NCBI GenBank assembly: GCA_003223255.1
Contig: QHYJ01000246.1
Span: forward strand, 2,423 to 45,150
Direction: 5' to 3'
Source: Acidobacteriota bacterium
GTDB taxonomy: Bacteria > Acidobacteriota > Terriglobia > Acidiferrales > UBA7541
Length of the DNA stretch: 42,728 nucleotides
In this document: piece by piece, positions 1,898-28,745 of the stretch
How the letters are laid out: the number at the start of each line of letters is the position of its first letter
How positions within the stretch are numbered: the first letter of the stretch is position 1
Program-made: the position numbers and the translations under genes
The notes under the pieces: model-generated
What the model saw: only the letters and a program-made list of their open reading frames with translations
Database searches by the model: none
Told to the model about the DNA's origin: nothing

Positions 1898-2406
1898 TTT
1901 GGAGACTGTCCAGGTTCTCTATTCTTGATCTAGGAGGAAACAACCACTTTCACTGCAGGAAGGATCGTTCTTAGGCGCACCAGTCGAAACTGACAAAACA
2001 AACAGGCGAGAACCAAGATTGGAATGCCTGCGGGCCAGTCGGGCAAGATCATTCGAGTGTTAATGATTACGCCCACAAGGAGTGTTCCGGGAAAATAAAA
2101 GCCAAAATCCCCTTAGACACGCAAACTCGCGACTTTTAGGCTCGTAGTTAAATTCTGATTTGCTATCTCGTTGATACCTCTTGGCTCTACTATATGGGGC
2201 ACGCAGCTTCTCAATACCTCGTGAGATGTGTCATGATTTGAGAAGGAAAGTTGACCTCCTGTTTAAATGTGGCGCTCGTTCAGCATCTCCGGATTGGGAT
2301 GCCGATCCGATTGCAGCGAGGAGGTTCGCGAGCTCGACGTGCGAAAGAGGCCATTTACTCCTCCAAGTGGAGAGCTACGTAGTTGCTTGGCTGCGCGAGG
2401 AATCTG
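1898..2406. other. 509-base gap with a hydrophobic minus-strand remnant
   Basis: No intact gene is visible. On the minus strand, 2112-1930 is open for about 60 codons and reads as two hydrophobic stretches (including ACLFCQFRLVRLRTILPAVK before the stop), with no credible start or ribosome site. It is probably another membrane-protein remnant. Short plus-strand frames overlapping the kinase start lack family features. The kinase promoter should lie here, but no convincing -35/-10 pair stands out. Confidence 0.4.
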
Positions 2407-4380
2407 ATGCGAGCTTCTCCCAGCGTCAAGAACAACACAATCGAAAGAGATGGTGTCCGAAGTGCATCTGCATTTCGCATAGCCGTTTTGTACGGCACGG
2501 CGCTGCTTTGGGTGGTCGTTGCAATTCTGCAATACAAGTGGGCCACACAGCTTAGTGCCGCGACGGAAGTGCGCATTGGCAGCAACCTACAGTCCTTGAT
2601 GACGAGATGGCAGCGGGATCTTTACGACGAGTTGTCGGCCGTCTGTGTCGCCTTACAAGTTGGGCCAGATTCTGGTGCGCACGATTCCTGGAGTGACTAT
2701 CTTCAGCGGTACGCTGAATGGAATCGGGGCGGGATAAGCAGCGAGGTTGCCGAGGGTGCTTATCCCCATCCAGACCTTGTTTGGGAGATTTACGATTGGC
2801 AAACCAGCGGGCCCGGAAAACCGGAACTGCTGCGCCTCGATCCAAGCAAGAAAACCCTACAAAGTTTAGGCGTGCCCCAGGAACTGGAAACGCTCCTGGC
2901 TCGGCTGAAGGCGAACTCCTCTAACCTGCGTGTGGCGAAGCGGGCTTGGGAATATGGAACTTCATCGGAAAACGAGAGCGGCCTCAGCAGCAATCAAGTC
3001 CGGAGCCCCGGCTTGCGCACGGATGCGCTTGCTGGCTGGCAACTTGACGAAGAAATCCCGGCACTTGTTCATCCCATAGTCCACCACGCCAATCCGTTGA
3101 GCTCTGAGACTCCCATCGATCGCACAACGGTTGATTGGCTTGTGGTCGTTCTGAACCTCCATGTAATCCAGGACCGGATCCTTCCAGAGTTGGCGAGCCG
3201 GCATTTTGCAGGTCCAGACGGTTTGGAATATAAGTTGGCGGTTGTGGCCGTTGACGACAAGCCCAGAGTCATTTATTCCTCCGATTCGACGCTTAGACTT
3301 GAAGATGTTGGCAGCTTCGACTCCATCATGAACATCTTCGGCGCTTCCTCTAATAGGACGAAGGGCGAGTTCTGGCAGTCCGTGAGTCACAGCTCGAATT
3401 TATCAGAACAAGATTGGCACAGCTTCGCAGCGCCGGTCTGGTTCCCGGTCTTGCAATATACATCCCATGATAAACCCTGGGTATTGATTCTCCGGCATCG
3501 GGCCGGACCGGTGGGGAAAATTGCGAGGAGCGTCTTATATCGGAATCTCATCATCGGCGGCGTTGTGTTGTCACTCCTTGCCGTGAACATGGGTCTCTTG
3601 GTTCTTTCAAGTCACCGGGCACACAAGCTCGCGAAAGTGCAAATGGAGTTCGTGGCGTCGGTTTCCCACGAATTGCGCACGCCGTTGGCTGCTATTTTTT
3701 CGGCCAGCGAAAACATCAAAGACGGATACGTGGAGGGAAGGAAGAATCTAAAGTTCTACGGCTCCATTCTCACCAGCCAGACACGTCGACTGATTGACCT
3801 TGTCGACCGCATCCTGCTTTTTGCTTCTACTCGAACGGGGAAGACAAGATATTCGGTGGTCCCTCTCACGGTAGCTGAAATTCTGGCAGTCATTAGAAAG
3901 AATGTGATAGAGGAAATCGAAGAAGAGCGGTGCACGCTCGAGGAGCATATTGAACCGGGTCTGCCGTCCGTTTCTGGCGATTTGTCGGCGGTGTCTGCCT
4001 GTTTGCGGAACCTGATTTCCAATGCCCTCAAGTATGGTGGAGAAGAACGCTGGATTGGTCTGTCCGCCACGTGTCATGAGACCGAGAATCACGCCAAAGA
4101 AGTTTGGTTTAGCGTTCAGGATCATGGGGAAGGCATCAGCGCTTCGGAATTGACACATATTTTTGAACCGTTCTACCGCAGCCCCAAGGTTGTGACGGCT
4201 CAAATCCATGGGACGGGTTTAGGGCTAGCACTGGCAAAGCGCATCGCGGAAGCCCTGGGAGGAAGAATTTCCGTTGTCAGCGAACTTGGGGTGGGAAGCA
4301 CTTTCACCTTGCACCTGCCCGCAGCGAGCCAGCAGGAACTCCTCAACGAGTCAAGCTTGCAAGAAACCACAGGACAATGA
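2407..4380 (+). CDS. Membrane-bound sensor histidine kinase
   Basis: Protein of 657 residues, a HisKA/HATPase_c histidine kinase. A first membrane helix lies at about 24-44 and a second at about 380-402. Between them is a periplasmic sensor region of roughly 335 residues that I do not recognise. The phospho-acceptor sits in VSHELRT (H421). The ATP-binding part has an N box (LRNLISNALKYGG), DHGEGIS, FEPFYR and the GTGLGLALAKRIAEALGG glycine loop, so the catalytic core looks complete. I chose ATG 2407 because GCGAGGAA lies just upstream; an in-frame ATG at 2383 lacks such a site. The response regulator begins three bases after the stop, so the two are surely cotranscribed and cognate. The multicopper oxidase operon follows in the same direction, which suggests control of secreted copper proteins in response to a metal, redox or envelope signal; this is inference. 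Confidence 0.93.
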   Translation: MRASPSVKNNTIERDGVRSASAFRIAVLYGTALLWVVVAILQYKWATQLSAATEVRIGSNLQSLMTRWQRDLYDELSAVCVALQVGPDSGAHDSWSDYLQRYAEWNRGGISSEVAEGAYPHPDLVWEIYDWQTSGPGKPELLRLDPSKKTLQSLGVPQELETLLARLKANSSNLRVAKRAWEYGTSSENESGLSSNQVRSPGLRTDALAGWQLDEEIPALVHPIVHHANPLSSETPIDRTTVDWLVVVLNLHVIQDRILPELASRHFAGPDGLEYKLAVVAVDDKPRVIYSSDSTLRLEDVGSFDSIMNIFGASSNRTKGEFWQSVSHSSNLSEQDWHSFAAPVWFPVLQYTSHDKPWVLILRHRAGPVGKIARSVLYRNLIIGGVVLSLLAVNMGLLVLSSHRAHKLAKVQMEFVASVSHELRTPLAAIFSASENIKDGYVEGRKNLKFYGSILTSQTRRLIDLVDRILLFASTRTGKTRYSVVPLTVAEILAVIRKNVIEEIEEERCTLEEHIEPGLPSVSGDLSAVSACLRNLISNALKYGGEERWIGLSATCHETENHAKEVWFSVQDHGEGISASELTHIFEPFYRSPKVVTAQIHGTGLGLALAKRIAEALGGRISVVSELGVGSTFTLHLPAASQQELLNESSLQETTGQ

Positions 4381-4383
4381 AAC

Positions 4384-5076
4384 ATGCTTGAGAGCATCCT
4401 TTTAGTAGAAGATGAAGCCGCCTTACGGGCCACCCTGGGTGACCGGCTTCGCGGCGAGGGTTACGTCGTTGACACAGCCGTCGATGGAATCGAAGCTGTT
4501 GAGAAAGCTGCCAACCTGCCCTTTGACTTAATCATTCTCGACCTTATGTTGCCGTCACGAAGCGGATTTGATGTTTGCCGCGACATCCGCCAAGCGGGAA
4601 TGGCTACTCCCATTCTGATCCTGACCGCTCGCGACCAAACCACGGATAAGGTGGCGGGACTAAGGCTTGGCGCGGACGATTACGTGACCAAGCCGTTTGA
4701 GGCCGCTGAACTTATCGCGCGCATCGAAGTTTTGCTGCGGCGCGTGCCCGTAAGGACGGGCCAAGGTACCCACGAATTTAGCTCGATCGTTGTCGACGCG
4801 AAGCGATCCACCGTTACGCGAGCTGGAAAGCCAGTCTATGTTACGGCTCGCGAGTTTCAACTTCTCCGCTACTTCATCGAACGACCTGGAATAACGATTC
4901 CACGCAAGGAACTGCTGCAAGCGGTTTGGGGCTATGTGGCGGATTCTCTCACGCGAACTGTCGATGCTCATGTTGCAAGCCTTCGACAGAAGTTGGAAGA
5001 GAATCCGAAGCGGCCGGAACTAATAGTCACGGTTTCCGGGACCGGCTATAAATTTGTGGGACACAACCGCAGCTAG
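4384..5076 (+). CDS. OmpR/PhoB-family response regulator
   Basis: Protein of 230 residues with the standard two-domain layout. The receiver domain (about 1-120) has the acidic pocket E9/D10, phospho-acceptor D53 in ILDLMLPS, T81 in LTARD and K103 in VTKPFEA, so all conserved receiver residues are present. The C-terminal winged-helix domain (about 130-228) contains VTAREFQLLRYF and ends with the family-typical TVSGTGYKF. It starts three bases after the kinase stop and is its evident partner. Regulators of this type bind paired direct repeats spaced 10 or 11 bp; just such repeats (TGWAAW at 5311, 5322 and 5332) lie in the gap before the multicopper oxidase operon, which is therefore the likely target. 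The ligand or stress sensed cannot be read from the sequence. Confidence 0.95.
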   Translation: MLESILLVEDEAALRATLGDRLRGEGYVVDTAVDGIEAVEKAANLPFDLIILDLMLPSRSGFDVCRDIRQAGMATPILILTARDQTTDKVAGLRLGADDYVTKPFEAAELIARIEVLLRRVPVRTGQGTHEFSSIVVDAKRSTVTRAGKPVYVTAREFQLLRYFIERPGITIPRKELLQAVWGYVADSLTRTVDAHVASLRQKLEENPKRPELIVTVSGTGYKFVGHNRS

Positions 5077-5468: not shown

Positions 5469-7148
5469 ATGAAAAAGTTGTTCCGAGTTGGATTGCCTTT
5501 ACTCCTATTCTGTTTGGCACCGCTCGTCGTAAGCGCCCAGTCATTCCGGGTGCAATGTCCGACAAGCACGATTACCCACCCAGACCCCAGCAATTCCGGC
5601 GTTAACAGTTCGGAACCCGCGTACAACGGGCCGACGTACACAGGAACTTCGGCGGACTACACAACCGGTCGCACCGGTCCGGCGAACGGCGCCATCAAGT
5701 GCCAGCAGATCGGCGGTGGCGACGGCTTCTCGACGATGGGTGACGGCACACAGATTTACATGTTCTCCTTCGGGCCGTTGTCTGGGCTTGCAGACATCGC
5801 AAATGGCTTGCCCGGCACGGAGTTCCCGAGCGTGTTCAATACCGTTTATCCGGGAACGTTTTTGCCCGGCGACCCTGCCGCCACACTTGGTGCGGGCAGC
5901 GGTGGGGTGGGCATTAATGCAAACCCGGTTCCCATAGGGTTTACCTATAACGGTGCCGTGGGCTTGGCTCCTGACGTCGATGCGCATGCCAACGGTCTTT
6001 GCGGGGGCACGGCACAACCGTCGTGTCTCAATGGGCACGTAGATCCTCGCGCGATCATTGACGTTGGAGTCATGAATGGCAATATCCCGGCGCCGCTGTT
6101 GGCGATGGACGAGGACGACGAAGTCTTCTTTACGCTCACCAACGTGGGCATGATCATGCGGCCGGATCTGTTCGAGCAGCACACCGTCCACTTCCACGGC
6201 TATCCCAACGCTTCTTCGTTCTACGACGGCGTGCCGGACGCCTCGGTCGCCATCAACATCGGCGGCAGCTTCACCTATTACTATTTTGCTCCAGATGCCG
6301 GAACTTATTTTTGGCACTGCCACATTACTCCTCCCGAGCACTTGCAGATGGGCATGGTCGGCCAGCTTTATGTGCGTCCGCGTCAGGATCGAGTCCCTGC
6401 CGGCGGCGACCTTTTCACATATCTGGGTTACCAGCAAAACGATCCACGCACGAAATGCGATACCTCCGCCGATATCCTGTGCAGCAATCCCCTGCCGGCC
6501 GTCAATACGGGCGCGACGAATCCACCGGCCGTTTATAACGCAGCGGCGAGCGGCACTAACGGGCCGAGGCCGGGGTATGCCTATAACGACGGCGATGGCT
6601 CGACGTTCTACGACGTCGAGTATCCTATCCAGATACACGGCTTCGATCCCAACTTCCACTTTGTCGGCATGACCTTCAACCCCGAAGAATTCAACGACAT
6701 GAAGGACAAGTATTTCCTGCTCAATGGTCGGAGCTACCCCGACACGGTAACGCCCGGTCCCCTGGCCACACAAGTGACAGATGGAAAGATGCACTTCTCC
6801 CAGCCGCTGCCCTCGATCATCAACATCCCGGCCGGCGGGAAGGCGCTCCTGCGCATTGACGACCTGGATGTTACGGAGTATCAGACCTTAGCGTCGCTCG
6901 GAATTCCGATGACCGTGATTGGGTTCAACGCCAAGCTTTTGCGCGACCAGGCTGGAAACAACCTGTACTACAACACAAACTCGATCACGCTAGGCGGGGG
7001 CGAGTCTCTCGACGTGATTCTGGATGCCAGCGATACAACGAAGTATCCCTCGGGCAGCGTGTTCTATCTGTACACCCCGAATCTCGACCACCTTTCCAAT
7101 GACGCTGAAAATTTTGGCGGGCTCATGACCGAGGTCCACATCAACTAG
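5469..7148 (+). CDS. Secreted multicopper oxidase, chain A (type 1 site and half a trinuclear site)
   Basis: Protein of 559 residues with a signal peptide (MKKLFRVGLPLLLFCLAPLV, cleavage near VSAQ). ATG 5469 is chosen because GAGG lies five bases before it and the signal peptide starts there. The cupredoxin core carries HTVHFHG (H238, H241, H243) and WHCHITPPEHLQMGM (H283, C284, H285, H291, M296). H238/C284/H291/M296 fit a type 1 copper site, and the two HxH pairs fit half of a type 2/type 3 trinuclear cluster. The spacing HCH-x5-H-x4-M is two residues longer than the usual HCH-x3-H-x4-M. This module lies in the middle of the chain. The remaining 260 residues are cupredoxin-like (GGKALLRIDDLDV, GGGESLDVILDAS) with no further HxH motif. 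Alone the protein lacks four of the eight trinuclear histidines; chain B, ten bases downstream, has them. Substrate unknown; a laccase-like metal or phenol oxidase is possible. Confidence 0.88.
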   Translation: MKKLFRVGLPLLLFCLAPLVVSAQSFRVQCPTSTITHPDPSNSGVNSSEPAYNGPTYTGTSADYTTGRTGPANGAIKCQQIGGGDGFSTMGDGTQIYMFSFGPLSGLADIANGLPGTEFPSVFNTVYPGTFLPGDPAATLGAGSGGVGINANPVPIGFTYNGAVGLAPDVDAHANGLCGGTAQPSCLNGHVDPRAIIDVGVMNGNIPAPLLAMDEDDEVFFTLTNVGMIMRPDLFEQHTVHFHGYPNASSFYDGVPDASVAINIGGSFTYYYFAPDAGTYFWHCHITPPEHLQMGMVGQLYVRPRQDRVPAGGDLFTYLGYQQNDPRTKCDTSADILCSNPLPAVNTGATNPPAVYNAAASGTNGPRPGYAYNDGDGSTFYDVEYPIQIHGFDPNFHFVGMTFNPEEFNDMKDKYFLLNGRSYPDTVTPGPLATQVTDGKMHFSQPLPSIINIPAGGKALLRIDDLDVTEYQTLASLGIPMTVIGFNAKLLRDQAGNNLYYNTNSITLGGGESLDVILDASDTTKYPSGSVFYLYTPNLDHLSNDAENFGGLMTEVHIN

Positions 7149-7158
7149 GAGAGCAGCA

Positions 7159-8784
7159 ATGAATGCGACGAACACAAAAATGATGATTTCGAAATCTCGA
7201 TTGCTTGTTTTGCTGGTGCTGGCGTTGCTGCTGACGGCCACGACTCATGCTGCTGCGCCGGGCATCACTGGGCCGGCGTTCAACTTGATGGCGCAGGCTA
7301 GTTCCATCAGCCAGCCGGACGGGGCGGCAGTTTATTCCTGGGGCTACGGCTGCAACGGGGCGCCAGCCGGCTTTGCCCCCGCGGCCATTACCAACGGGTT
7401 TTGCAACTCGATGCAAGTTCCCGGCCCCACGCTCATTGTCACCGAAAACCAGACGGTCACGGTAACACTCACGAATAATCTTCCTGCCGCGGCCGGCAAC
7501 ACCTCTATCCTTTTCCCCGGCTTCAACGTTACCGCGACGGGAGGCGTTGCCGGGCTGATGACCCAGGAGGCGGCGCCTGGCGGCACGGTGACCTATACGT
7601 TCACCGCCTCGTCACCGGGAACGCGCGCCTATTACAGCGGGACCCAAGGCGATCTTCAGGTTGAGATGGGCCTGTATGGCGCCATCATTGTTCTCCCAGC
7701 CAGCGTCCCGTCGGGCTGCACCGGCGCGCTGCATGCTGCCAACCTCACCGCAGAACAGTTCTGGGGTGAGGCCGACTTCCGACTTGCTGCGGCCGCGTAT
7801 GACCACGCCAGTACGTGCTACGACCGGGAATACCTGTTTCAGTTCGCCGAGATGGACCCCAAAGTACACGCAGCGGCGCTGGCGCAGGTCACGGCAGCTG
7901 GTAACTGCACGGCTGGGGCGCCCGGATGCAGCCTAAGCGTTCCGACGGAGCCCTATCAACCCGCCTATTTCCTGATCAACGGGCGCTCGATGCCTGATGA
8001 TATGGACCCCAACTATGCGCTGGAGTATCCCCACCAGCCCTATAACGGTAACCCACACATGCATCCCGGGGAATTGACCCTGATCCGCGTCATCGGCCAG
8101 GGACGGTGGCAACACCCATTCCACGAGCACGGGAACCACGTGCGCATCTTAGCCCGCGACGGAAACCTTATTCTCAGCCAGACGGACGCGACCAAGCTCG
8201 GTGGACGCCTGGAGTTCACCACGGACACGACTCCGGGGCAGGCGTTTGACGGGATCTTTTACTGGAGCGGCAAGGGTCTGAACTGGGATCCGTATGGACA
8301 CCATCCCGGCTCGAGCGACCCCTCCGCCACGCTTGCCTGTACTCCGGATGCGAACGGCTACAACACGGGCGCCCCTACCGCGATCAACTTCTGGGAGTGG
8401 TGCCAGGATCACAATAAGCCTGTGCAAGTGGCTCCCTTCGGTGATGTTGCAAGTGGCGGCCCGGCTACTCTGCCCGACCCGAACATTTTCGCAAACGGCC
8501 CGTGGTACGGCGGGAGCCCCTATCTGGGTCCGGATGCAACCCTTCGAGCGACTGGATGCATGCCCAGTGGCGCTGCTCAAACTAACGCGCCAAACTGCGG
8601 CGCCACCGGCTCAACTCCACCTTCCGGCACCATAGCAAACTCGCCATCGGGCGAAGCCGGCTTTGCTTTCATGTGGCACTCGCACAACGAGCGCGAGATC
8701 ACCACCAACAACATTTTCCCCGGGGGCATGCTCATGATGATGCTGGTCGATTCCCGGGAATTCGTCATTGACGAATCCAAGTAG
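7159..8784 (+). CDS. Secreted multicopper oxidase-like, chain B (HxH pairs, no type 1 Cys)
   Basis: Protein of 541 residues with a signal peptide ending near THAAAPG; AGGAG lies seven bases before ATG 7159. The N-terminal cupredoxin domain has the usual fold signatures (QVPGPTLIVTENQTVTVTLT, GLYGAIIVLP). Where functional oxidases have HxHG and WYHSH it reads ILFPGF and RAYYSGTQ, so this domain cannot bind the cluster in the usual way. The C-terminal domain has HPFHEHGNH (H319, H322, H324, H327) and MWHSHNERE (H507, S508, H509). Ser occupies the place of the type 1 Cys, so no type 1 copper is expected, but both HxH pairs are intact. Ten bases separate it from chain A and its stop precedes chain C by 17 bases, so it is one operon. 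I infer it supplies the histidines missing in chain A. It could instead be a ligand-binding paralogue without catalysis. Confidence 0.85.
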   Translation: MNATNTKMMISKSRLLVLLVLALLLTATTHAAAPGITGPAFNLMAQASSISQPDGAAVYSWGYGCNGAPAGFAPAAITNGFCNSMQVPGPTLIVTENQTVTVTLTNNLPAAAGNTSILFPGFNVTATGGVAGLMTQEAAPGGTVTYTFTASSPGTRAYYSGTQGDLQVEMGLYGAIIVLPASVPSGCTGALHAANLTAEQFWGEADFRLAAAAYDHASTCYDREYLFQFAEMDPKVHAAALAQVTAAGNCTAGAPGCSLSVPTEPYQPAYFLINGRSMPDDMDPNYALEYPHQPYNGNPHMHPGELTLIRVIGQGRWQHPFHEHGNHVRILARDGNLILSQTDATKLGGRLEFTTDTTPGQAFDGIFYWSGKGLNWDPYGHHPGSSDPSATLACTPDANGYNTGAPTAINFWEWCQDHNKPVQVAPFGDVASGGPATLPDPNIFANGPWYGGSPYLGPDATLRATGCMPSGAAQTNAPNCGATGSTPPSGTIANSPSGEAGFAFMWHSHNEREITTNNIFPGGMLMMMLVDSREFVIDESK

Positions 8785-8801: not shown

Positions 8802-10475
8802 ATGCGATTCAACGATCTGAAGATTTGTCTGAAGACAGCAGTACTCCTCACAGCTGTTCTCCTGCTCGGAGCGGGCCGCGTCGTTGCCCAGCAGCAGGTC
8901 AATTTGACCGCGGGGCCGACTACCGTAACCTTGCCGGATGGCTCGGTGGTGCCGATGTGGGGGTACAGTTGCGGCACTGCCGTGACTGGCTCCACGGCGA
9001 CGTGCGCTAACTTGAATCCGCTGGCCCCAGCGGCGACGACCACCACGCCAGCCGGTTGGTCTCCCGTGATCATCACTGTTCCTACGGGACAAACCCTCGT
9101 GATCAACCTCAGCAACAATCTCTCGTTTACGGCGGGCACTGCGACAAACACCGTGCCGACTTCGCTCGTAATCGTGGGTCAGTTGGGCGGTGGCCTAGGA
9201 GATGTAACGCAGCGAACCACGACCACACCTCCGGACCACAGCAAGGCCCAGCCACTCACGTGGCCCATCGCCGGTGATGCGCCCGGGGCGGGACTAACGG
9301 GTGTGGGAGTTCCCCCAACGCAGGGTCCCCGCGTGCAGTCGTTCTCCACGGAAGTTGCTGCGGGAGCAACAACGTCACTGACTTGGACGACACCTCGGCC
9401 CGGCACGTACTTGCTTGAGTCTGGCACGCACCCCTCCATCCAGGGACCCATGGGCCTGTACGGCATGGTCGTGGTTACCGAGGCGCCCTCGGCAACAGCC
9501 GTGGCCCCCGCGAGCGTCACCACAGGATGCGCTTACACCCCTGTTGCGGGAACAACGTGCGTCGTGCCTTACAATGCAGAAGCTAACCTGCTCTTCAGCG
9601 AAATTGATCCGGTCCAAAATAACGCGGTGCAAGCCGCGGTAACCACCGCGGGGTTCAGCGAGACGATGGTGTGGTCTGGCCAGCCCGGCGGCTGCGGCAA
9701 CCCGTCTTCGACAACGTACCACCAATGCTATCCGCCGGCGGTAAATTACACGCCGCTGTATTACCTCATTAATGGTGTTGGGTTTAGCAGGAGTAATGCT
9801 TCGGCGTCACTCTTCCCGGTCACGCCCGCGACGGGCGTTACCGGCAGTGTCTTGGTGCGCGTGGTGAACGCAGGCTTGCGCATGCACGTGCCTTCGATTG
9901 TCGGTTCCCAAACCGGGACCGCCGTAGCTCCGGCTCTTCCGCCTTCGGGCTTCGCGCTGATTGCGGAAGATGGTAACCCGCTACCGGGCATTCCGCGCGT
10001 GCAGAGCGAAGTATTTATGGCTGCGGGCAAGACTTACGACGTGATGATCAATGCGCCCGCCGCCGCTGCGACGGCCGCGACCCTCCCAGTGTATGACCGC
10101 GAGTTGAGCCTCTCAGGCAACGCCACCGCGCGCGACGCCGGTATGTTGGCTTACATCAGCGTCAATGGCGGCACACTGCCCAGCTCACCCTCGATCGCGG
10201 CTGCAGTAGCCCGCGCAGATACTTACAACTCTCTGATTGCGGGCCAGAAGTTCACGGTTTTGGATTCCGGCAAGCGCGTAATCGCCAACGATCCGAACGT
10301 CTACGGCATTCACCTCCTGGCGCCTGCTGCTAATGGTACAGTGACCCTCAACGCCAATGGTACCTTCACGTATGTTCCCAATTCGGGCAGTACTGCTACC
10401 TCGGATTCCTTCACCTATTGCGCGAACGGTTCGGTAACGGCGGGTGTGTGCTCTTCTGGTTTTGGGTGCGGGTGA
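8802..10475 (+). CDS. Multicopper oxidase-like chain C, copper motifs lost; 5' part of a giant gene
   Basis: Open for 557 codons. ATG 8802 has AGGAGA seven bases upstream and begins a clear signal peptide (cleavage near VVAQQQ); an earlier GTG at 8784 does not. It is a paralogue of chain B: both have a WGY-x-C segment near the N-terminus and PGT...SGT...MGLYG. All HxH and HCH positions are absent (GTYLLESGTHPSIQ replaces the WYHSH region), so it should be catalytically silent. The C-terminal 90 residues are a cadherin/VCBS-like repeat (VIANDPNVYG, TVTLNANGTFTYVPNSGST). The frame then stops prematurely at 10475, just after VCSSG. The next frame continues the same repeat array, so the natural product is probably the N-terminus of a much longer protein ending at 18674. 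It may be a structural subunit that docks chains A and B on the surface. Confidence 0.8.
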   Translation: MRFNDLKICLKTAVLLTAVLLLGAGRVVAQQQVNLTAGPTTVTLPDGSVVPMWGYSCGTAVTGSTATCANLNPLAPAATTTTPAGWSPVIITVPTGQTLVINLSNNLSFTAGTATNTVPTSLVIVGQLGGGLGDVTQRTTTTPPDHSKAQPLTWPIAGDAPGAGLTGVGVPPTQGPRVQSFSTEVAAGATTSLTWTTPRPGTYLLESGTHPSIQGPMGLYGMVVVTEAPSATAVAPASVTTGCAYTPVAGTTCVVPYNAEANLLFSEIDPVQNNAVQAAVTTAGFSETMVWSGQPGGCGNPSSTTYHQCYPPAVNYTPLYYLINGVGFSRSNASASLFPVTPATGVTGSVLVRVVNAGLRMHVPSIVGSQTGTAVAPALPPSGFALIAEDGNPLPGIPRVQSEVFMAAGKTYDVMINAPAAAATAATLPVYDRELSLSGNATARDAGMLAYISVNGGTLPSSPSIAAAVARADTYNSLIAGQKFTVLDSGKRVIANDPNVYGIHLLAPAANGTVTLNANGTFTYVPNSGSTATSDSFTYCANGSVTAGVCSSGFGCG

Positions 10476-11334
10476 TACAAGCAGCACTGTCGCCTGCAGC
10501 AGCCCGTCTTACACCGCGAGCACAGCCAGCTACCTGGCCATTAAGACCCCGGGCGTCCTTGCATCTTGTACAGACTCGAAGGGCTTTCCTCTCACCGCTA
10601 CAGCGTTTACAGGAGCGGGAGTTGTGGGGGATGCGAGCGGCGGTTTCACCGTTTCGCTGGCCACGCCTTGTACTACCTCGACCGGTTGCCCGACGTCTTT
10701 CACGTTCCAAGCGAAGAATTCGCAGGGAATCCTCAGGTCGGCTACGACTGTGAACGTTACCTTCGCGGCTGCCAGCAATCTCCTGGTCAAGGTTTTGGAC
10801 GGTGCCGACAAGACCACTGAGATTACCGACTATCGCTGGATTATCGAGGAAGACCGCACCTTCTACATTGACCCCAAATGCACAACGAATTCCTCCACGG
10901 CCATTCCGGGCTGTCCTCCACCTCCGGCTCCAGGGAGCACTACAGGGACCACGGTTCCGCCAACCTTTGGTGTGAATTTCCACACCAGCTACATGCCGGT
11001 GGTGGCGGCGGGCTGCACCGGGAAGCTTTCCTGTGAAGGTGGCCAGACCATGGTGGATCCGGCGACCGGTTCGCATGTTCCTGCGGTGTGCGACGTGGGC
11101 AACGGCGTTTGCCGGCCCGATCCCACAGGAAATGGATTCACGCCTCTGAATCCCAGCCAAGTTCATCTGGATCCGACCACGGCAGCGCGCCCGCGAACTG
11201 CGCAGCAGGCCCCTATGACAGCACGGACCCGACCGGCTTTAACACCGCTTGTGGCCACGGCATGGGTGGAGCTCCCATTCCCGCACTGCCTGCGGGCACT
11301 ACTTCTTATCCGACGACGCCATATACGATCCTGA
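10444..11334 (+). pseudogene. Middle segment of the giant gene, out of frame with both neighbours
   Basis: From about 10460 to about 11175 this frame reads like exported-protein sequence: SYLAIKTPGVLASCTDSKG is a VCBS/cadherin-like linker unit continuing the repeats of the preceding segment, followed by NLLVKVLDGADKTTEITDYR, then DRTFYIDPKC and VCDVGNGVCRPDPTGNGFTP. Beyond about 11175 it turns into a shadow of the downstream frame. It starts without a ribosome site or signal peptide, so it is not an independent gene. The first junction lies in a T/G-rich stretch around 10455-10465 and the second around 11170-11180. Two opposite shifts restore the original frame, which fits either two indels in a decaying gene or two consensus errors in the assembly. 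Confidence 0.7.
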
Positions 11335-14300
11335 CCCAGCCCGCTCCGTTCCCACCGGCTCTACTCTCAGTGTTTGTGTTCCAGGATGACTTCCCGCTGA
11401 ACGGCGAGCACGATGCCGGTGGTGGGACGGGCGCAGTGAATACCACCAGCGAGCCCGGTCTAGGTGGCTTTGAAATCACCCTCTTTGACGATGCTGGCGG
11501 CACTGGCGATGCTACCGGACAATTGACGCACGATATGTTCAATCAGCCACTTTCTAATAGCTTGGCAGGAACCATCGACCCCCTCAGTGGTCTCGACGCC
11601 TGCCCAATCACGAAAAGCCCGTTGGTTGCCATGGATACGTCAAATGGCAATGCCCCTGGCTCTGTGGGCACGATTGGCATCACCGGTAGGATTGTTACCT
11701 GCCCAGAGTTCGAAGCCGACGGTATAACACCGTCTCCGTTGGCTGGCCAAGCCATTATTCCCAACATGATGCAGGGAAGGTACGGCGTAGTGGCCACCCC
11801 GGCGGCAGACCGCATCGCCCGAGGTGAAGAGTGGCTGCAAACCAACACCTTGGACGGGGAGAAGGCCCATGATTCGTTCCTGCGCATCGGTGAACCCAGC
11901 TACTTCCAAGAGTACGGTCCGGCGGGCTACCACGTCAGCATCGGCTTCGCCAATCCGCAAATCATCAACAGCCGCTTGGCAGGAGTCTGCGCGGGTGCCG
12001 ATCCGACCATCACAGGCACGAATTGCCACAACGTCATAACCGCCACCGTCACAACCGAACGGATGAGCCGCACCCCGGATGAAAGGCTTTACAGCAGCGG
12101 CGACAACACCGGCTTCTCCTTCACTCAGTGCTACGTGAGCTTTGGCGATCCCGACGGCGAGGACTTCGCCTTCACCAAGTGCGGCCCCGATGGCTCCTTC
12201 ACCCTCTCTGGTCTTCCCGACGGCGACTGGAGGATAACCGTCTTTGACCAATGGAACGATATGTTGGTGGACGGTCTTTCCACGCCCGTAAGGCTTGCCG
12301 GCGGGGCAACGGTCAATATGGGCAATATCGCCATGAACCAGTGGCAGGCCAATATCTACACTTCGACTTTCTTCGACGCCAACGGGAACGGCGTTCGCGA
12401 TCCCAACGAAGACGGGCTCGCCCTGGTGTCCACGAATATTCGCTTCCGAGACGGCAGTTTCTCCAACTTCAACAACACGGACCTGAGCGGCAACGCGGGC
12501 TTTAACGAAGTGTTCCCACTATTCAGTTGGTACGTGGTTGAAACAGACGCGACTCGTTACAAGAGCACCGGAACCCACGTCGTCTACGACGCCGGAGGGC
12601 CCGCAGACGGCTCTTCGTCCTGCGGCGCAACCGGCTACCCCGCATGCGGAACCTCCACCATTGGCCAAATGATGGCGAACACGAACGAACCGGCTGCTGT
12701 CGCTCTGCCAACTAACCTGCGGGTGCCCGGCGCGTACTATTGCTCCAATGGAGACTGCACCGATGCCCCGGCTCCGCTTTCCCCGGGCGGCTCGGGAGGC
12801 TCCACAGGACGTGTTGATCCTCCTTGGGTTGCTTCCGAAGGTTGGCAAGGTTTCTCCGGACAGAACTCCTTCCTTGAGTTCGGCAAGAAACTCTTCGCAG
12901 TAGGGGAGACCGGCGGTATCCATGGCGAAGTGGTCTACGATTCCACACGCCCATTCGACGATCCACAGCTCAACCTGCACTTGAGCTGGACGCCGAACGT
13001 GCCCAATGTGACCGTTAACCTCTACCAAGAGGGCGTTGCGGGCGATAGCGTGACCCCAACCCTCAAGTTGGTGGACACCACCAAGACCAGCAGTTGGGAC
13101 GATTGGGCGCAGGGCTTCCGGTCCGATGGCACGCCCAACATGAACTGCCCGGGCCAGTCCACTACCGATCTCTTCTACTTCTCGGTGTTTAACCAGCCTG
13201 ATTACCTGGACGTGTACAACAACCAACACAACGGCACTCCGCTCCACACGATTCCGAATAATTCCCAGTTCAAGTGCTATGACGGCATGCACAACTGGAA
13301 CCAGCTCCAGCCAGCGCCGTACGACGGTACGTACCGGTTCCCCAGCGTCACTGGTATTGACCCGACGGGCAAGCCCAGTGGCACGAACTGCACCATCTGC
13401 ATCCCGAACCCCGACACGACCGACCCGTGGAGGGTTGGCACGCCCATGCTGCCTGCCGGCAAGTACGTGGTGGAAGTGGTTGTGCCGCCGGGTTATGAAC
13501 TGGTCAAGGAAGAGGACAAGAACATCCTGATCGGAGACAATTACATCGCGCCGGTCACGCAGCAGTTCGGCGGACTTGGCGCGATCTATATTCTGCCCGA
13601 CCAGGCCGCAGTCGGCGCGAGCTACAACGCCAACAACGCCCAGAACCAGACCACGGATTTGGGTACGTTGAACCTGCCCCGCGGTGAAGGCGACACGGGA
13701 AGCGTCGAACAGTTCTGGCCCTGTGTGGGCGAGGCGCGCATCGTGCCTGACTTCATGAGCATCTTCCCGCAGGCCCAGGAAGTAGCAGCCTTTCCCGGAG
13801 CTACGCGCAATCTGTGCGACCGTAGGGAAATCACGCTGCAAGACCAGGCATCGGCGCTGGCGAAGTTCTACATCTTCAGCTCGACCCACGTCGCCGCCCA
13901 CTTCACCGGCATAATCACGGACGACTTCACTTCCGAATTCGATCCTTTCTCCCCGGCTTTTGGTGAGAAGTTCTCGCCTCCAGACATGCCAGTGAGTATC
14001 AAGGATTGGGCCGGAAACGAAATCAACCGCGTGTATAGCGACCATTGGGGCGCCTACGATGGCTTGACCTACTCGACCTGGGAAGTCAATCCCCCCAACC
14101 CGACCGGCTATGGGCCGACGATGATGGTCACCTGCATGAACGACCCAGGACCCGTCGTGGACACGAATCCGGCTTCGCCCACCTACAACCAGATGATTAC
14201 GGACCCGTTGTTCAGCGCGCAATACAGCCAGTTCTGCTATGAGATCCCGTTCATGCCGGGACAGACACAGTACATGGATACGCCTGTCGTGCCTACATCC

Positions 14301-17300
14301 GCTTTCGCCGGTGCGGGCTACAACAATGTGGATTGCTCCTATCCCGATGCCACACCCGCGGTCAAGGAAGTGGATGGCGACGGGCTCGGACCTTGGGTGA
14401 GCGCGGCGGGTCACACGCTCACGATCACTGCGTTGGGCGATCAGATGGTGCCCAACAACGCCTACGCCGGGCCTCAGGCCACGACTGCTCCGTACAACCA
14501 GAAGTTTGTTAAGCGGCACTTTGGTTTTGGTGCCAGCCCCACTGTAACCATCGGTGGTGTTCAAGCCTCATGTACTGGCGGCGACCTCTCGCTGACTTGC
14601 AGCGTTCCGACAGGGGTGCAGCCGTGCCTAGTTCAGCAGCAGGCGCAGTACGGCGGTTCGACAGCCTATTGCGGTGAACTGGTCATCACCTCCGCCCCTG
14701 TGACCACGGGGACTGGTGGTGCCACCGGGGTGACGGTCACCAACGCAGGCAATGGTTATACCGCCAGGCCCACGGTGACGTTCAACAACACCGGGACCGG
14801 TGGTAGCGGTGCAGCCGCGACGGCGACGGGAACAGCCGTCCTCGGGTCAGGCACCACGGCAGGGAGAGTAGTCGGCGTAACCGTAACCAACCCAGGTTCG
14901 GGGTATACCAGCAGGCCGACGGTGACTTTCGCCCCGCCGTCTTGCACCATTAACGGAACGACATGCGTACAGGCAACCCTGACCAACTCTTCCACAGCGG
15001 GTGTCTTCATGGACGTAGTCTCAGTGACCGTTACCGCTGCCGGAACGGGTTATACCAGCAACCCCACAGTGACTTTCACCGCGCCGTCTTGCACAATTAA
15101 CACAACCACGTGCGTACGGGCCACCGGAACAGCCGCAGCCTCGCCGATTCAAACCTTCAGTGCGAGGCAGTCGATTGATACCGTTACGGTCACTGTCGGC
15201 GGCAAGCCACCGACTCACGTCCCCGCTACCGGGTCGATCCAGAGTGCGATTGACACTGCCGCTCCGGGCGACTTGATCATCGTTGACCCGGGCTTTACGC
15301 CATCCGCAACTGCCGCAGCTGGAACTTCGTGCGCCGGGGTAACTGCGCCGACCGCCACCTGTGTCGAAACCGGGGCTGCCCACAACGAATTGTTGATTAT
15401 GTGGAAGCCGGTCCGACTGCAAGGTGTCGGAGCCGCCTCCAGCATCATCAACGCAAATACCCATCCGGCGGGCCAGACCAAGTTGGACGCCTGGCGCCAG
15501 CGGATCGTTTGTCTCTTTGGCCTGGGGCTGAATGGTTCGCCAGTCAACACCAGCCCGCACACGGGTGATGTCAACACGATTAAGAACGTATTCGATCCCA
15601 CCAGCCAAGTCGGTTGCCCAGGAACGGGATGGAACTACTTTACAGCGTTCGACGAGAGTGGCGCGATGGCCGGCTCCTCCGCTACCAATGCGCAAGTAGA
15701 TCGTTTGCCAACGGAAGCCACTATCGGATGGGACGCCAACCTGAACGGCAACCTCGCCGAGCAGTTGCAAGAGCCATCTTTGATGGGCGCTCTGGAAGGC
15801 GCGGGCATTACCGTGCTCGCTAAGGGCGTGAACTTCCCCTCGGATCCATACGACCCAACTCTACTCGCAGGGTTCCCGACCGGCACGACACTGCTCATCG
15901 GAACCGATGCCGCCGGTGGCGGTAACTTCCCTGTGGGTGACGCCAATCCCGTCTGCCACACTAGTGCAGCCAGTGCGACCAACCCGTTCCCGAGCAACTA
16001 TTCGTGCAACCCCTCGAGCATCGACGGCTTGGGCATCACGGATAGCTCCCAGGGCGGCGGAGGCATCTTCGTCCACGGCTGGGCACATAATCTGCAAATT
16101 GCCAACAACCGCATTTACAGCAACGCCGGAACGCTTTCGGGCGGCATCAACGTCGGCCAGGGTGAGTTTACTGGCGCTTATATCCAAGGGGCGGGCGCCC
16201 TAAATGCGCCTCCAGGTTCCTGCGAGGACAGCCCTGTGCCTAACGCGCAGCTGCCGTACTGTGAAAACGTCAATGTGAATATCCATAACAACTACGTCGC
16301 ATTGAACTCTTCCACCGGCGATGAATTGTTCTCGGCCACACCGGCCGGGGCTGGCGGCGTCAGCATCTGCACCGGCGCCGACTACTACAAGTTCAACTAC
16401 AACTGGGTGTGCGGCAATCTGAGCAGTGGAGATGGCGGCGGCGTCGCTCATCTGGGGTATAGCTCCAACGGCGACATCGAGCACAATACCATCCTCTTCA
16501 ACCAGAGCACCAACCCCACAATCCCGACCAATGGTGGCGGTCTCATCATCATGGGCACTCCGGATCAGGACCTTGTTTGCAGTACGATCAATCCCAACCT
16601 CGACCAAGATTGCCCACCTACGGCATCAGTTGGTGGGGCTGCCAGTGTTACGCCGAGCGACGGCGTCGGTCCGGGCCTGGTCATCAACGCCAACCTGATC
16701 ATGGGGAACGCTGCCGAGAGCGGCACTGGGGCGGGCATCGCCTTCAATGCTGTCAACGGCACGGACATGGTTAACTTCCCCACCGATCCAGGACAGTGGA
16801 ACCTGGTGACCGTGACCAATAACATTATCGTGGACAACGTGGGCGGTTGGGATGGCGCCGGAATCTCGCTGGCCGATTCTCCCAACGTTAACATCATCAA
16901 CAACACCATCGCTTACAACGCCAGCACGGCTTCGGCAGGAATCCTCTTCAACACTCTTGGGGCTCCTCTTGCCAGCCAGGGCGGAAGCAGCTGCACGAGC
17001 ACAGCGACAACCACATGTCCTCGGCCCGCTGGGCTGGTGGCCATCCAGCATAGCGCAGTTTTGGCGGCGAATCTGCCATCGGGCACTGGTGGCGTCAATG
17101 TCGTCTGCCCCCCAGGCCATTTCCAGACCACGGCAACCAACGGATCTTGCAAGACCGTCTCGTATCCGAAGCTGGAGAACAACGTCTTCTGGCACAACAG
17201 CGCGCACTACATTGGCGTGGGCGCACTCAGCCCGCAATTCCAGCAGAATGTGGTGTCGCTGTTTAACGCCTTCACCCATACTGCCGTAGCGAGCCAACCA

Positions 17301-18674
17301 TCTGCTGACAGCTCGACGACGACGAGTGGGAGCACTACCATCACCGGAGGCACCGGGGCTTGCGTTTCCGGCACCCAATATTGGGATATCGGGGTGCGCG
17401 GTGACACAGGACCGACCAACCACAGCTCCGGGGTTACGCTCCGCGCGACCGATTCCGTGCTGACCCCAGGTGCGTCTGCTGTTTTGGCCTCTGGTAACTC
17501 CACGGCTGACCCGCGCTTCCTTAGCCAGTACTGCGACGGTTCACGCACGGCCCCCGAAACGCCGGGACTGCTTGCGGCGAGCTGGATCGTGCCTCCGGGT
17601 ATCTCGGATGCAACCGTGCCCAACCCGATCTTCAACCTGACTCCGGCCGCTACGGTGGACGAAGGCAACAACTGGGTCAACATGCGCTGGGGCCCACTCG
17701 CGATGACCAATCCAACAGTTGCAGCCGGACCTTACGGAAATTACTGTGGCGGCCTCCCGCTCGGTAATTACGGCATTGCCACGGCATCCTCCGCAGCAGG
17801 AAGGGTTGCTGGTGGCTCGGCGAACTACACCGACGCTCCTAACTTCGACTTCTACAACAACCCAAGGAAACCTGGTCCAATTGATGCTGGGGCAGTTCAA
17901 CGGACCGGGACTGGCACGAACAGAGACTTCACGGTCTCACCAGGGTTGGTGGACTTTGGCTTTGTGCCCCTGCATAGTCCGAGAACCGTGGATCAGGACA
18001 TCCAGGTCATTAACTCGGGCAACGTCCCGCTATCGTTCAACGCTGCCTCCTTCTCGATTTCGTGCACGAACGTGACTACCGGATGCAACACAGCAAGCTT
18101 CACCATCCTGTCCAATACCTGCTTTGTGGGCGGGGGCGTGTCCACGCTTGCTCCGGGACAAAGCTGCGTGGTCAACGTGGCCTTCAACCCCATCAGCACG
18201 TCGCAAGCAGCGAGGAATGCAACGCTGAGTGTGAACCCGGTAGGTAACGGCGGCGCGACGTTCGTCTCACTCACCGGTCACGACAGCATTGCCACGATAA
18301 CCATCTCGCCGCTCACTCCGGCGCTGACGGCAGGCGGAGCAAGCAACACCACCGTCAAGACCGGCACCATCACCATCACTAACACTGCCAACCCGAACAC
18401 GAATCTTGACGCCGGCCCGTGGATCCCAACAGCCATAACCCTTACCCGGCTGACCGGCACGGGTACTTTCGCGCGCGGTGGGACTTGTGCCGTTGGCACG
18501 GCCGTGAACGCGGGCGGAACGTTGGTGCCACCTGTAGCAGGCTCGAGTTGCACGATCATTATCACCTATACGCCGCCGGCAACGGGGTCCCCGAACGCCA
18601 GCGCGCACCTTACGGTGACGGGACTCGGGACCATAGCAACCACAAACATTAATACGACGTACAACGCGAACTAA
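11088..18674 (+). CDS. Giant extracellular SdrD-like/beta-helix/choice-of-anchor protein, 3' part
   Basis: Open for 2528 codons, though authentic coding in this frame begins only near 11175; the first 29 or so codons shadow the previous segment. Domains in order: an SdrD/Cna-B-like domain (about 92-140, VFQDDFPLNGEHD); prealbumin-like folds (about 365-395 and 789-820, with LPAGKYVVEVVVPPGYEL); a calcium-binding-type loop (about 424-440, FDANGNGVRDPNEDG); an IPT/TIG-like part near 1147; three GYTxxPTVTF repeats (about 1210-1345); a right-handed parallel beta-helix (about 1378-2270, beginning SIQSAIDTAAPGDLIIVDPG, rich in N-x-I/V-x-N-N rungs); and two C-terminal choice-of-anchor-D-like Ig domains (about 2280-2528). 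Paired cysteines are frequent, as expected for a secreted, disulphide-bonded protein. There is no membrane anchor or sorting motif I recognise. It probably forms a surface scaffold with the copper proteins encoded upstream. Confidence 0.85.
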   Translation: MRRGQRRLPARSHRKWIHASESQPSSSGSDHGSAPANCAAGPYDSTDPTGFNTACGHGMGGAPIPALPAGTTSYPTTPYTILTQPAPFPPALLSVFVFQDDFPLNGEHDAGGGTGAVNTTSEPGLGGFEITLFDDAGGTGDATGQLTHDMFNQPLSNSLAGTIDPLSGLDACPITKSPLVAMDTSNGNAPGSVGTIGITGRIVTCPEFEADGITPSPLAGQAIIPNMMQGRYGVVATPAADRIARGEEWLQTNTLDGEKAHDSFLRIGEPSYFQEYGPAGYHVSIGFANPQIINSRLAGVCAGADPTITGTNCHNVITATVTTERMSRTPDERLYSSGDNTGFSFTQCYVSFGDPDGEDFAFTKCGPDGSFTLSGLPDGDWRITVFDQWNDMLVDGLSTPVRLAGGATVNMGNIAMNQWQANIYTSTFFDANGNGVRDPNEDGLALVSTNIRFRDGSFSNFNNTDLSGNAGFNEVFPLFSWYVVETDATRYKSTGTHVVYDAGGPADGSSSCGATGYPACGTSTIGQMMANTNEPAAVALPTNLRVPGAYYCSNGDCTDAPAPLSPGGSGGSTGRVDPPWVASEGWQGFSGQNSFLEFGKKLFAVGETGGIHGEVVYDSTRPFDDPQLNLHLSWTPNVPNVTVNLYQEGVAGDSVTPTLKLVDTTKTSSWDDWAQGFRSDGTPNMNCPGQSTTDLFYFSVFNQPDYLDVYNNQHNGTPLHTIPNNSQFKCYDGMHNWNQLQPAPYDGTYRFPSVTGIDPTGKPSGTNCTICIPNPDTTDPWRVGTPMLPAGKYVVEVVVPPGYELVKEEDKNILIGDNYIAPVTQQFGGLGAIYILPDQAAVGASYNANNAQNQTTDLGTLNLPRGEGDTGSVEQFWPCVGEARIVPDFMSIFPQAQEVAAFPGATRNLCDRREITLQDQASALAKFYIFSSTHVAAHFTGIITDDFTSEFDPFSPAFGEKFSPPDMPVSIKDWAGNEINRVYSDHWGAYDGLTYSTWEVNPPNPTGYGPTMMVTCMNDPGPVVDTNPASPTYNQMITDPLFSAQYSQFCYEIPFMPGQTQYMDTPVVPTSAFAGAGYNNVDCSYPDATPAVKEVDGDGLGPWVSAAGHTLTITALGDQMVPNNAYAGPQATTAPYNQKFVKRHFGFGASPTVTIGGVQASCTGGDLSLTCSVPTGVQPCLVQQQAQYGGSTAYCGELVITSAPVTTGTGGATGVTVTNAGNGYTARPTVTFNNTGTGGSGAAATATGTAVLGSGTTAGRVVGVTVTNPGSGYTSRPTVTFAPPSCTINGTTCVQATLTNSSTAGVFMDVVSVTVTAAGTGYTSNPTVTFTAPSCTINTTTCVRATGTAAASPIQTFSARQSIDTVTVTVGGKPPTHVPATGSIQSAIDTAAPGDLIIVDPGFTPSATAAAGTSCAGVTAPTATCVETGAAHNELLIMWKPVRLQGVGAASSIINANTHPAGQTKLDAWRQRIVCLFGLGLNGSPVNTSPHTGDVNTIKNVFDPTSQVGCPGTGWNYFTAFDESGAMAGSSATNAQVDRLPTEATIGWDANLNGNLAEQLQEPSLMGALEGAGITVLAKGVNFPSDPYDPTLLAGFPTGTTLLIGTDAAGGGNFPVGDANPVCHTSAASATNPFPSNYSCNPSSIDGLGITDSSQGGGGIFVHGWAHNLQIANNRIYSNAGTLSGGINVGQGEFTGAYIQGAGALNAPPGSCEDSPVPNAQLPYCENVNVNIHNNYVALNSSTGDELFSATPAGAGGVSICTGADYYKFNYNWVCGNLSSGDGGGVAHLGYSSNGDIEHNTILFNQSTNPTIPTNGGGLIIMGTPDQDLVCSTINPNLDQDCPPTASVGGAASVTPSDGVGPGLVINANLIMGNAAESGTGAGIAFNAVNGTDMVNFPTDPGQWNLVTVTNNIIVDNVGGWDGAGISLADSPNVNIINNTIAYNASTASAGILFNTLGAPLASQGGSSCTSTATTTCPRPAGLVAIQHSAVLAANLPSGTGGVNVVCPPGHFQTTATNGSCKTVSYPKLENNVFWHNSAHYIGVGALSPQFQQNVVSLFNAFTHTAVASQPSADSSTTTSGSTTITGGTGACVSGTQYWDIGVRGDTGPTNHSSGVTLRATDSVLTPGASAVLASGNSTADPRFLSQYCDGSRTAPETPGLLAASWIVPPGISDATVPNPIFNLTPAATVDEGNNWVNMRWGPLAMTNPTVAAGPYGNYCGGLPLGNYGIATASSAAGRVAGGSANYTDAPNFDFYNNPRKPGPIDAGAVQRTGTGTNRDFTVSPGLVDFGFVPLHSPRTVDQDIQVINSGNVPLSFNAASFSISCTNVTTGCNTASFTILSNTCFVGGGVSTLAPGQSCVVNVAFNPISTSQAARNATLSVNPVGNGGATFVSLTGHDSIATITISPLTPALTAGGASNTTVKTGTITITNTANPNTNLDAGPWIPTAITLTRLTGTGTFARGGTCAVGTAVNAGGTLVPPVAGSSCTIIITYTPPATGSPNASAHLTVTGLGTIATTNINTTYNAN
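14717..15124 (+). repeat. Three in-gene repeats encoding GVTVTNxGxGYTxxPTVTF
   Basis: Units begin at about 14717, 14868 and 15016. Each encodes VTVTxxGxGYTxxPTVTF. Units 2 and 3 also share a following disulphide-loop segment, PSCTINxTTC. The second and third are close at DNA level, suggesting recent duplication within the giant gene. Confidence 0.7.
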
Positions 18675-18760: not shown

Positions 18761-19270
18761 ATGCAAGAACGTCATCCAATCCTAAAAACAAACTTGATCT
18801 TTCTAGCTGGAGTTCTCGGCAGCAGCATTTTGGTATTCCAGGCGGGGGCACAGACCTCTTCTCACCCCGCGAATCCGAAGCGAACTGCCGCTCCGATGCA
18901 CTACCGCCCCGATCGCTTCGCCGGACGCGCGGGAAAGTACTACGCTCTGATTTGGGGCGTCGACTCGCTCAGCCTCAAGTACGCCGAGTCTGGCGAGGTC
19001 ATTCGATTCAGCTACCGCGTACTGGATCCCAACAAGGCGCGAACCTTGAACGACAAGAAGCTCGAGCCCAGCTTGATCGATCCGGAAGCTGGAGTGAAAT
19101 TAGTGGTTCCGTCCCTGGAAAAAGTCGGACAGTTGCGTCAGAGCAGCACCCCTGAGGCAGGCAAGTCCTACTGGATGGCATTTTCGAACAAAGGCCGATT
19201 GGTGAAACGAGGAGACCACGTCGATGTGGTGATCGGGCCGTTCCACGCTCAAGGACTTGTCGTCGATTAG
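18761..19270 (+). CDS. Conserved small secreted protein of unknown function
   Basis: Protein of 169 residues with a signal peptide (hydrophobic core LIFLAGVLGSSILVF, cleavage near AGAQT). GGGAGAGG stands before ATG 18761. The mature part has no cysteine and no membrane segment. It has the look of a small beta-rich domain with segments YYALIWGVDSLSLKYAESGE, RVLDPNKARTLNDKK, QSSTPEAGKSYWMAFSNKG and VDVVIGPFHAQGLVVD. I believe homologues occur as hypothetical proteins in acidobacterial genomes, but I cannot assign a fold or function. It follows the operon terminator by 37 bases, so it needs either read-through or its own promoter. Its position next to the secreted copper proteins suggests an accessory periplasmic role. 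Confidence 0.75.
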   Translation: MQERHPILKTNLIFLAGVLGSSILVFQAGAQTSSHPANPKRTAAPMHYRPDRFAGRAGKYYALIWGVDSLSLKYAESGEVIRFSYRVLDPNKARTLNDKKLEPSLIDPEAGVKLVVPSLEKVGQLRQSSTPEAGKSYWMAFSNKGRLVKRGDHVDVVIGPFHAQGLVVD

Positions 19271-27721: not shown

Positions 27722-27813
27722 CAGTTCCTCCTAACCACTTGTGGCCGGAGCGGCGACCGACAGCAATCGCCGTCCAGACACTGGGCACAGCATGTTTGCC
27801 GCAAGCTGTGCCG

Positions 27814-28743: not shown

Positions 28744-28745
28744 GG

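Follow-up and report, generated by a model that had tools for sequence, protein, structure and literature searches.

How could a multicopper oxidase (MCO) be formed at a locus where none of the encoded polypeptides holds all of the copper ligands by itself? The question is raised by two adjacent genes, A and B, in a stretch of 42,728 nucleotides from an Acidobacteriota bacterium (contig QHYJ01000246.1; the whole stretch analysed is called the window in the following), for which an earlier note, made from the letters of the DNA, had proposed that one active site is split over the two gene products. Taking into account the gene that follows, C, we regard it as likely that the three gene products, paralogues of one another, make up an extracytoplasmic MCO derived from a two-domain type C oxidase, and that a single site would be shared by domain 1 of A (A1) and domain 2 of B (B2) in an A-C-B heterotrimer. 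The genes are arranged as follows:

5469..7148, + strand: gene A, secreted two-domain MCO-like subunit of 559 aa
7159..8784, + strand: gene B, secreted two-domain MCO-like subunit of 541 aa
8802..10475, + strand: first stretch of gene C, encoding a third MCO-like subunit of two domains, which has no ligand pairs and precedes a Big_9/cadherin-like repeat

A and B are spaced by ten bases on the same strand, and the N-termini of both have been judged by eye to resemble a Sec-type signal sequence. Both members of the unit drawn in the earlier note, A plus B within 5469-8784, are real, but this interval ends before C, a third member beginning at ∼8802. Relatives have been collected by a scan with B as bait, in which 184 have been found and loci have been taken from the best 80 of these 184; neighbouring genes have been compared over 86 loci, L119-L124 among them. 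Conservation has been read from 80 sets, all distinct and several of them from one genome, which consist of the window, 73 of the 80 fetched loci and the six loci L119-L124; seven fetched loci have been dropped, three for lack of A and four because a contig end truncates A. The most distant of the 80 sets are ∼37-41% identical, and identity figures refer to the 73 sets having A, B and C, or to 68 when L119-L123 are left out.

The type 1 ligands and the first half of the trinuclear ligands are found in A:

6024..6404, + strand: A1 (aa 186-312), the sole domain in which two HxH pairs accompany a complete type 1 site
6180..6197, + strand: H238 (type 1) and H241-x-H243 (trinuclear), from motif listing and conservation
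6315..6356, + strand: H283-C284-H285 (trinuclear His pair flanking the type 1 Cys) with H291 and M296 (type 1), from motif listing and conservation
6600..7145, + strand: domain 2 of A (A2, aa 378-559), a cupredoxin domain without HxH, from profiles and predicted fold

The positions that had been read from the sequence of A (H238, H241 and H243; H283-C284-H285, H291 and M296) are borne out by the motif listing, as is the statement that this chain has no further HxH. In Pfam, Cu-oxidase_3 is above its cut-off in A and Cu-oxidase_2 is above its cut-off in A1, and residues 201-306 of A match the blue copper oxidase of Nitrosomonas europaea (3g5w) with an E-value of 1.4e-14, the type 1 and trinuclear ligands aligning residue by residue. 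H238, H241, H283, C284, H285, H291 and M296 have been found in 80/80 sets and H243 in 79/80; the type 1 ligands among them, H238, C284, H291 and M296, are confined to A in all 80 sets and are found neither in B nor in C.

The remaining trinuclear ligands are those of B, whose features are the following:

7276..7713, + strand: domain 1 of B (B1, aa 40-185), an MCO domain 1 fold with its ligands lost, from Pfam, profiles and a fold match; HxH in 0/80
7942..8781, + strand: B2 (aa 262-541), holding both HxH pairs of domain 2, with Ser replacing Cys in 80/80
8056..8064, + strand: H300-M-H302, an extra HxH, from the motif listing
8113..8130, + strand: H319 and H322-x-H324, from motif listing and conservation
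8677..8685, + strand: H507-S508-H509, from motif listing and conservation

The loss of the N-terminal copper motifs from B, which the earlier note had asserted, is seen in every row of B1. Its motif list for this chain is right regarding H319, H322, H324, H507 and H509 but incomplete, as H300-M-H302 forms a third HxH. Cu-oxidase_3 is above cut-off in B and Cu-oxidase_2 in B2, and the best matches of B in the structure database are two-domain oxidases, reached via the ligand-free B1; HPFHEHG of B and the domain 2 motif of 3g5w align weakly (<10 bits). The residues H302, H319, H322, H324, H507, S508, H509, E511 and E513 are kept in 80/80 sets, and H300 and H327 in 76/80, the exceptions being four compact relatives (L119-L122). 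A role of H300-M-H302 as a fifth ligand pair has been considered and rejected, since the pair is not universal: H300 is not His in these four relatives, and H302 alone is invariant. As the ligands hardly vary, if at all, across 80 distinct sets and Cu-oxidase_3 is above cut-off in both chains, the motifs of A and B are not a chance pattern.

The third gene encodes two domains of the same kind, followed by a much larger part:

8898..9485, + strand: domain 1 of C (C1, aa 33-228), paralogous to A1 and B1 by hhalign profiles
9735..10187, + strand: domain 2 of C (C2, aa 312-462), paralogous to A2 and B2 by Pfam and hhalign profiles
10444..18674, + strand (frames 10444-11334 and 11088-18674): remainder of the giant C protein, in which SdrD_B and choice-of-anchor D are matched weakly

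The first 460 residues of C form two cupredoxin-like domains without ligand pairs, for which the Pfam Cu-oxidase match stays below cut-off; an adhesin-type repeat follows and then the giant part, in which SdrD_B and choice-of-anchor D are likewise below cut-off. In the compact relative L121, C by itself passes the Cu-oxidase_3 and Cu-oxidase cut-offs and a separate giant protein passes that of SdrD_B; in all four compact relatives, the relative of the giant part (1,678-1,962 aa) is a separate gene upstream of the unit. In L119 (2617-5229, - strand), the compact unit is adjoined by an S8 subtilase whose Big_9 repeats resemble those of C. In the window, C is broken over three overlapping frames (8802-10475, 10444-11334 and 11088-18674). 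The relative of C in L029 runs in one frame throughout and matches the window in frames 1, 2 and 1, and a single open frame of 2,513-3,523 codons has been found in 46 of the 51 relatives whose C is not cut by a contig end; the break in the window may be an assembly error or a young lesion.

Regarding the origin of the three chains, comparison of profiles built from up to 80 sets has given hhalign probabilities for the domain 1 pairs of 96.5% (A1-B1), 99.5% (B1-C1) and 72% (A1-C1), and for the domain 2 pairs of 95% (A2-B2), 94% (A2-C2) and 94% (B2-C2), while all nine cross pairs between a domain 1 and a domain 2 are at ≤11.5%. Since domain 1s match domain 1s and domain 2s match domain 2s with low cross pairs, A, B and C are, on this profile evidence, paralogues derived from one two-domain subunit. 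The duplications seem to predate the separation of the Acidobacteriota and the Burkholderiales copies, because the compact A of Burkholderiales is 39-41% identical to the A of the window, whereas A and B are 22-27% identical to each other. Of the six cupredoxin domains thus related, only A1 (the type 1 site plus two HxH pairs) and B2 (two HxH pairs plus the extra one) have ligand pairs. HxH occurs in 0/80 rows of each of A2, B1 and C1 (A2 effectively 79, as L034 lacks A2 in the frame read), and C2 has a lone HMH in 7/80 rows. Among the 68 closer sets, the mean pairwise identity is 0.90 in A1, 0.82 in the first half of B2, 0.80 in A2, 0.77 in the second half of B2, 0.70 in B1, 0.67 in C2 and 0.65 in C1, so that the ligand-bearing domains are better conserved on the whole, though A2 overlaps with B2.

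A lies directly upstream of B, in an open frame of its own, in 77 of the 80 loci, the three misses being at a contig edge, and C follows B within 1 kb in 79/80, the one miss again being at a contig edge. A and B occupy separate open frames in 77/77 loci; a fused A-B frame has not been found, and among the matches listed no open frame with an A match exceeds 733 aa. In the genomes of the window's class, of which the best 4 to 6 candidates per genome have been scored (copy numbers are lower bounds), A, B and C have each been found in the identical 11 of 299 genomes. A has been found in 7/300 genomes of Burkholderiales, with B beside it in 7/7, and A and B occur in the same two of 349 genomes of the phylum of Burkholderiales, both among those seven. 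Contig ends apart, homologues of A and B have thus been found together wherever both have been looked for, in genome scans as well as in loci, which bears out the co-occurrence that the earlier note had named as a check; A has also been matched in G015, G016 and G030, outside the genomes searched for B. Four of the seven Burkholderiales genomes have compact versions of the unit (A 398-436 aa, B 426-475 aa and C 634-693 aa), in which A and B are 37-41% identical to their counterparts and the copper ligands are kept. The carriers are soil Acidobacteriota and Burkholderiales and include Cupriavidus metallidurans CH34, Paraburkholderia, Pandoraea terrae, Granulicella aggregans and Occallatibacter savannae; in the one annotated record, that of a Paraburkholderia plasmid, A, B and C are labelled 'hypothetical protein'. 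Viral contigs have been scanned for more diverse relatives, and none have been found there. The source genome of the window holds at least three copies of the unit, and in the third of them (G000:C30:14440-18738) A, B and C are all in broken frames, so that this copy is perhaps decaying. A C-like stretch lies at G138:C50:81406-82149, with no A or B on that contig among the matches listed; a similar C-like place in G278:C11 has A beside it in G312, apparently the same genome.

Structure prediction extends the homology of A over both of its domains. The model of the window's A, for which rows of A, B and C have served as the alignment, has a pLDDT of 75 and a pTM of 0.81, and it comes closest to 3g5w (Z 23.3, with 264 residues of both domains aligned at 2.8 Å) and next to 2zwn (Z 23.0), the two entries that a Foldseek search with the same model has also ranked first. 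A is thus predicted to fold as a two-domain oxidase/nitrite-reductase subunit. B1 is well modelled in a prediction of a fused A-B chain (L039, A and B in frame) and matches domain 1 of two-domain oxidases (3gdc, Z 11.4), other MCOs and nitrite reductases being ∼1 Z behind or tied. We take 3g5w (from N. europaea), 2zwn (a metagenomic laccase) and 3gdc to be type C oxidases.

On these grounds we picture the ancestor as a homotrimer in which domain 1 of every chain formed a site with domain 2 of the chain beside it, three identical sites in all. From it, two gene duplications followed by loss of the ligands in all but one domain 1 and one domain 2 would have led to the present unit. A would give the type 1 copper (H238, C284, H291 and M296) together with four trinuclear histidines (H241, H243, H283 and H285), B would give the other four (H322, H324, H507 and H509), and C, devoid of ligands, would complete the ring and attach the complex to a giant surface-type protein. 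Each trimer would then have one working site, at the A1-B2 interface, and the ring order would be A-C-B, because A1 must neighbour B2. Electrons from a reductant, in this superfamily usually a metal ion or a phenol, would enter at the type 1 copper of A and travel over C284 and the flanking histidines to the trinuclear site that A and B have in common, where O2 would be reduced to water. Three copies of A, or three of B, would be unable to form the usual site. An A1-B2 contact, a trimer with C, copper content, oxidase activity and surface display are what we infer for the complex.

The shared A-B site is well supported by sequence and homology, and the trimer with C would be an extension of it. 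That an A-B heteromer completes one enzyme, as the earlier note had put it, is in agreement with the complementary ligand loss, the co-occurrence, the predicted fold of A and the interchain site of the homologues; a bare pair is nevertheless less likely than a heterotrimer, because C is a third paralogous subunit. The full picture, a natural heterotrimeric MCO of ring order A-C-B with one trinuclear site over two gene products, in effect a ceruloplasmin in separate chains, which would have arisen by duplication and complementary decay without gene fusion and would be displayed on the surface via the giant C, claims more, and here the balance tips only slightly in its favour. The place of C is indeed where the strongest competing explanation departs: a simple A-B assembly (AAB, ABB or other) would share the site, and C would be an adhesin that docks via decayed MCO domains outside the catalytic ring. 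It would suit such an assembly that only A and B hold ligand pairs, that C1 and C2 are the least conserved domains, that in the window's branch C continues into a giant surface-type protein, and that C-like stretches are found on contigs without A or B among the matches listed (G138:C50). We nonetheless consider it unlikely, as C retains its two cupredoxin domains, arranged as in A and B, occurs in each of the 11 genomes having A and B, and is kept as a two-domain protein in the four compact relatives, where the giant part is a separate gene. A and B might also not share a site at all: A would then be a type 1 copper protein for electron transfer or copper handling and B a separate histidine metal binder, the role as an enzyme having been lost, and B indeed has no type 1 site (S508 in 80/80), an extra HxH and invariant acids beside its pair. 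Yet even in sets as distant as ∼37-41% identity all eight trinuclear histidines are retained along with the type 1 ligands, a single row showing a single exception, which together with the complementary pattern of the losses makes this reading quite improbable. Hardly credible is a pair of separate homo-oligomers, of A and of B, each building an unusual copper site by pairing its active domain with a second copy of it. Although two HxH pairs are present in each active domain and two-domain oxidases are homotrimers, it would require pairing of domain 1 with domain 1 or of domain 2 with domain 2, unlike in the homologous structures, and would leave the identical genome distribution of A, B and C unexplained.

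Several observations count against the A-C-B complex with its shared site and have to be set beside this. B2 is no plain domain 2, having a long insert, the extra HxH and the invariant E511 and E513 beside the HSH pair, and one of the 80 sets (L088, a metagenome-assembled genome) has Ser at H243 of A. Conservation does not separate the domains cleanly, as the ligand-free A2 (0.80) is slightly above the second half of B2 (0.77). The co-occurrence in the 80 loci has been obtained with B as bait, and the genes of an operon co-occur for many reasons. Regarding the models, two copper nitrite reductases, 4kns and 5zl1, reach Z 22.6 for A and thereby tie with 3g5w, and because of these tied scores an oxidase and a nitrite reductase are not told apart by the fold of A alone. 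The fused A-B prediction has a pLDDT of 51.3 and a pTM of 0.35, is low in A1 and B2 and is silent on their contact; the low confidence in these domains is probably due to A1 and B2 being too conserved for an informative alignment.

Several further genes have been noted around the unit, one of which follows C directly:

18761..19270, + strand: small secreted protein without a Pfam match

Similar small proteins have been found in 40/86 loci, many loci ending before that point, and also after C in Cupriavidus metallidurans CH34 and in a Paraburkholderia plasmid; this protein may be a further component of the A-B-C unit. Directly upstream of A, a histidine kinase and an OmpR-type regulator occupy 2383-5076 of the window, and a similar kinase is present in 7/86 loci and a similar regulator in 8/86. 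Downstream of the unit in Burkholderiales, a protein with cytochrome c and periplasmic-binding-protein matches recurs (L121 16348-18000, L126 23900-25512 and L125 25933-27459), for which a function as an electron donor or a sensor is possible. The window further encodes a multihaem cytochrome in which an MtrC/F-like domain is matched, together with cytochrome b genes that are split (24434-29672, - strand). A link of these downstream multihaem/bc cytochromes to the unit has been considered and set aside, as no relatives of them have been found in the 86 loci; this is a weak test, since the loci reach at most ∼10 kb past B (L119-L124 somewhat differently) and the cytochromes of the window lie >15 kb past B.

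An MCO with a trinuclear site split over two gene products has not been found described in the open-access literature, which is weak evidence of novelty, as subscription papers are mostly outside that scope. In the ceruloplasmin-type scheme, as given in PMC3600357, a two-domain oxidase has been triplicated into one six-domain chain and copper sites have been lost thereafter. If the shared site is true, the A-B-C unit would be a living alternative to that scheme, in which the sites have been lost while the chains stayed separate and the subunits became mutually dependent. It would also be a testable case of a homomer becoming an obligate heteromer at a four-copper active site, and searches that require all motifs in one protein would miss a split oxidase of the A/B type.

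Among the known copper enzymes, the heterodimeric fungal laccases are alike in name alone; their smaller chain is not known to be an MCO, and a single chain contains the active site. Copper nitrite reductases share the two-domain fold and are distinguished by an Asp-x-His motif and a single type 2 copper in place of the HxH pairs, whereas A and B have full HxH pairs and the Asp motif is not there. Their homotrimer likewise takes its copper ligands from two polypeptides (PMC3817396). The MnxEFG manganese oxidase complex offers a precedent for an MCO that needs other products of its operon, but MnxG is the only MCO of that operon, and its partners MnxE and MnxF are ∼12 kDa and said to be without known homologues (PMC5622069). 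Closer in plan are the six-domain oxidases (ceruloplasmin, hephaestin and MnxG-like proteins), with which the A-B-C unit has in common three two-domain units, losses of sites and one trinuclear site left of three, the last provided that the three subunits would form one ring. These are single chains with the type 1 site in an even-numbered domain, and in the bacterial members the trinuclear site is in domains 2 and 3 with the type 1 copper in domain 2 (PMC3600357), in contrast to three genes and a type 1 site in a domain 1 here. The A-B-C unit is therefore not a six-domain oxidase. An origin by fission of an MnxG-like six-domain oxidase is not favoured either, as the domains with the type 1 and trinuclear sites differ in the bacterial members and no fused A-B frame has been found; MofA has been weighed by its description (PMC11412304). 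The nearest likeness is to the type C two-domain oxidases, in which the type 1 copper resides in the N-terminal domain (PMC13151041), and which share with the present unit the two cupredoxin domains per chain (in A by model, in B and C by profile to A, in B1 also by fold), the fold predicted for both domains of A and a type 1 site placed in domain 1. Two-domain oxidases are homotrimers in which domain 1 of a chain and domain 2 of the chain next to it together bind the trinuclear site (PMC13151041, PMC6650940). One polypeptide provides both half-sites there, whereas here they are encoded by different genes, and for each domain two copies out of three are without ligand pairs. As its half-sites are not on one chain, the A-B-C unit is not a canonical two-domain oxidase.

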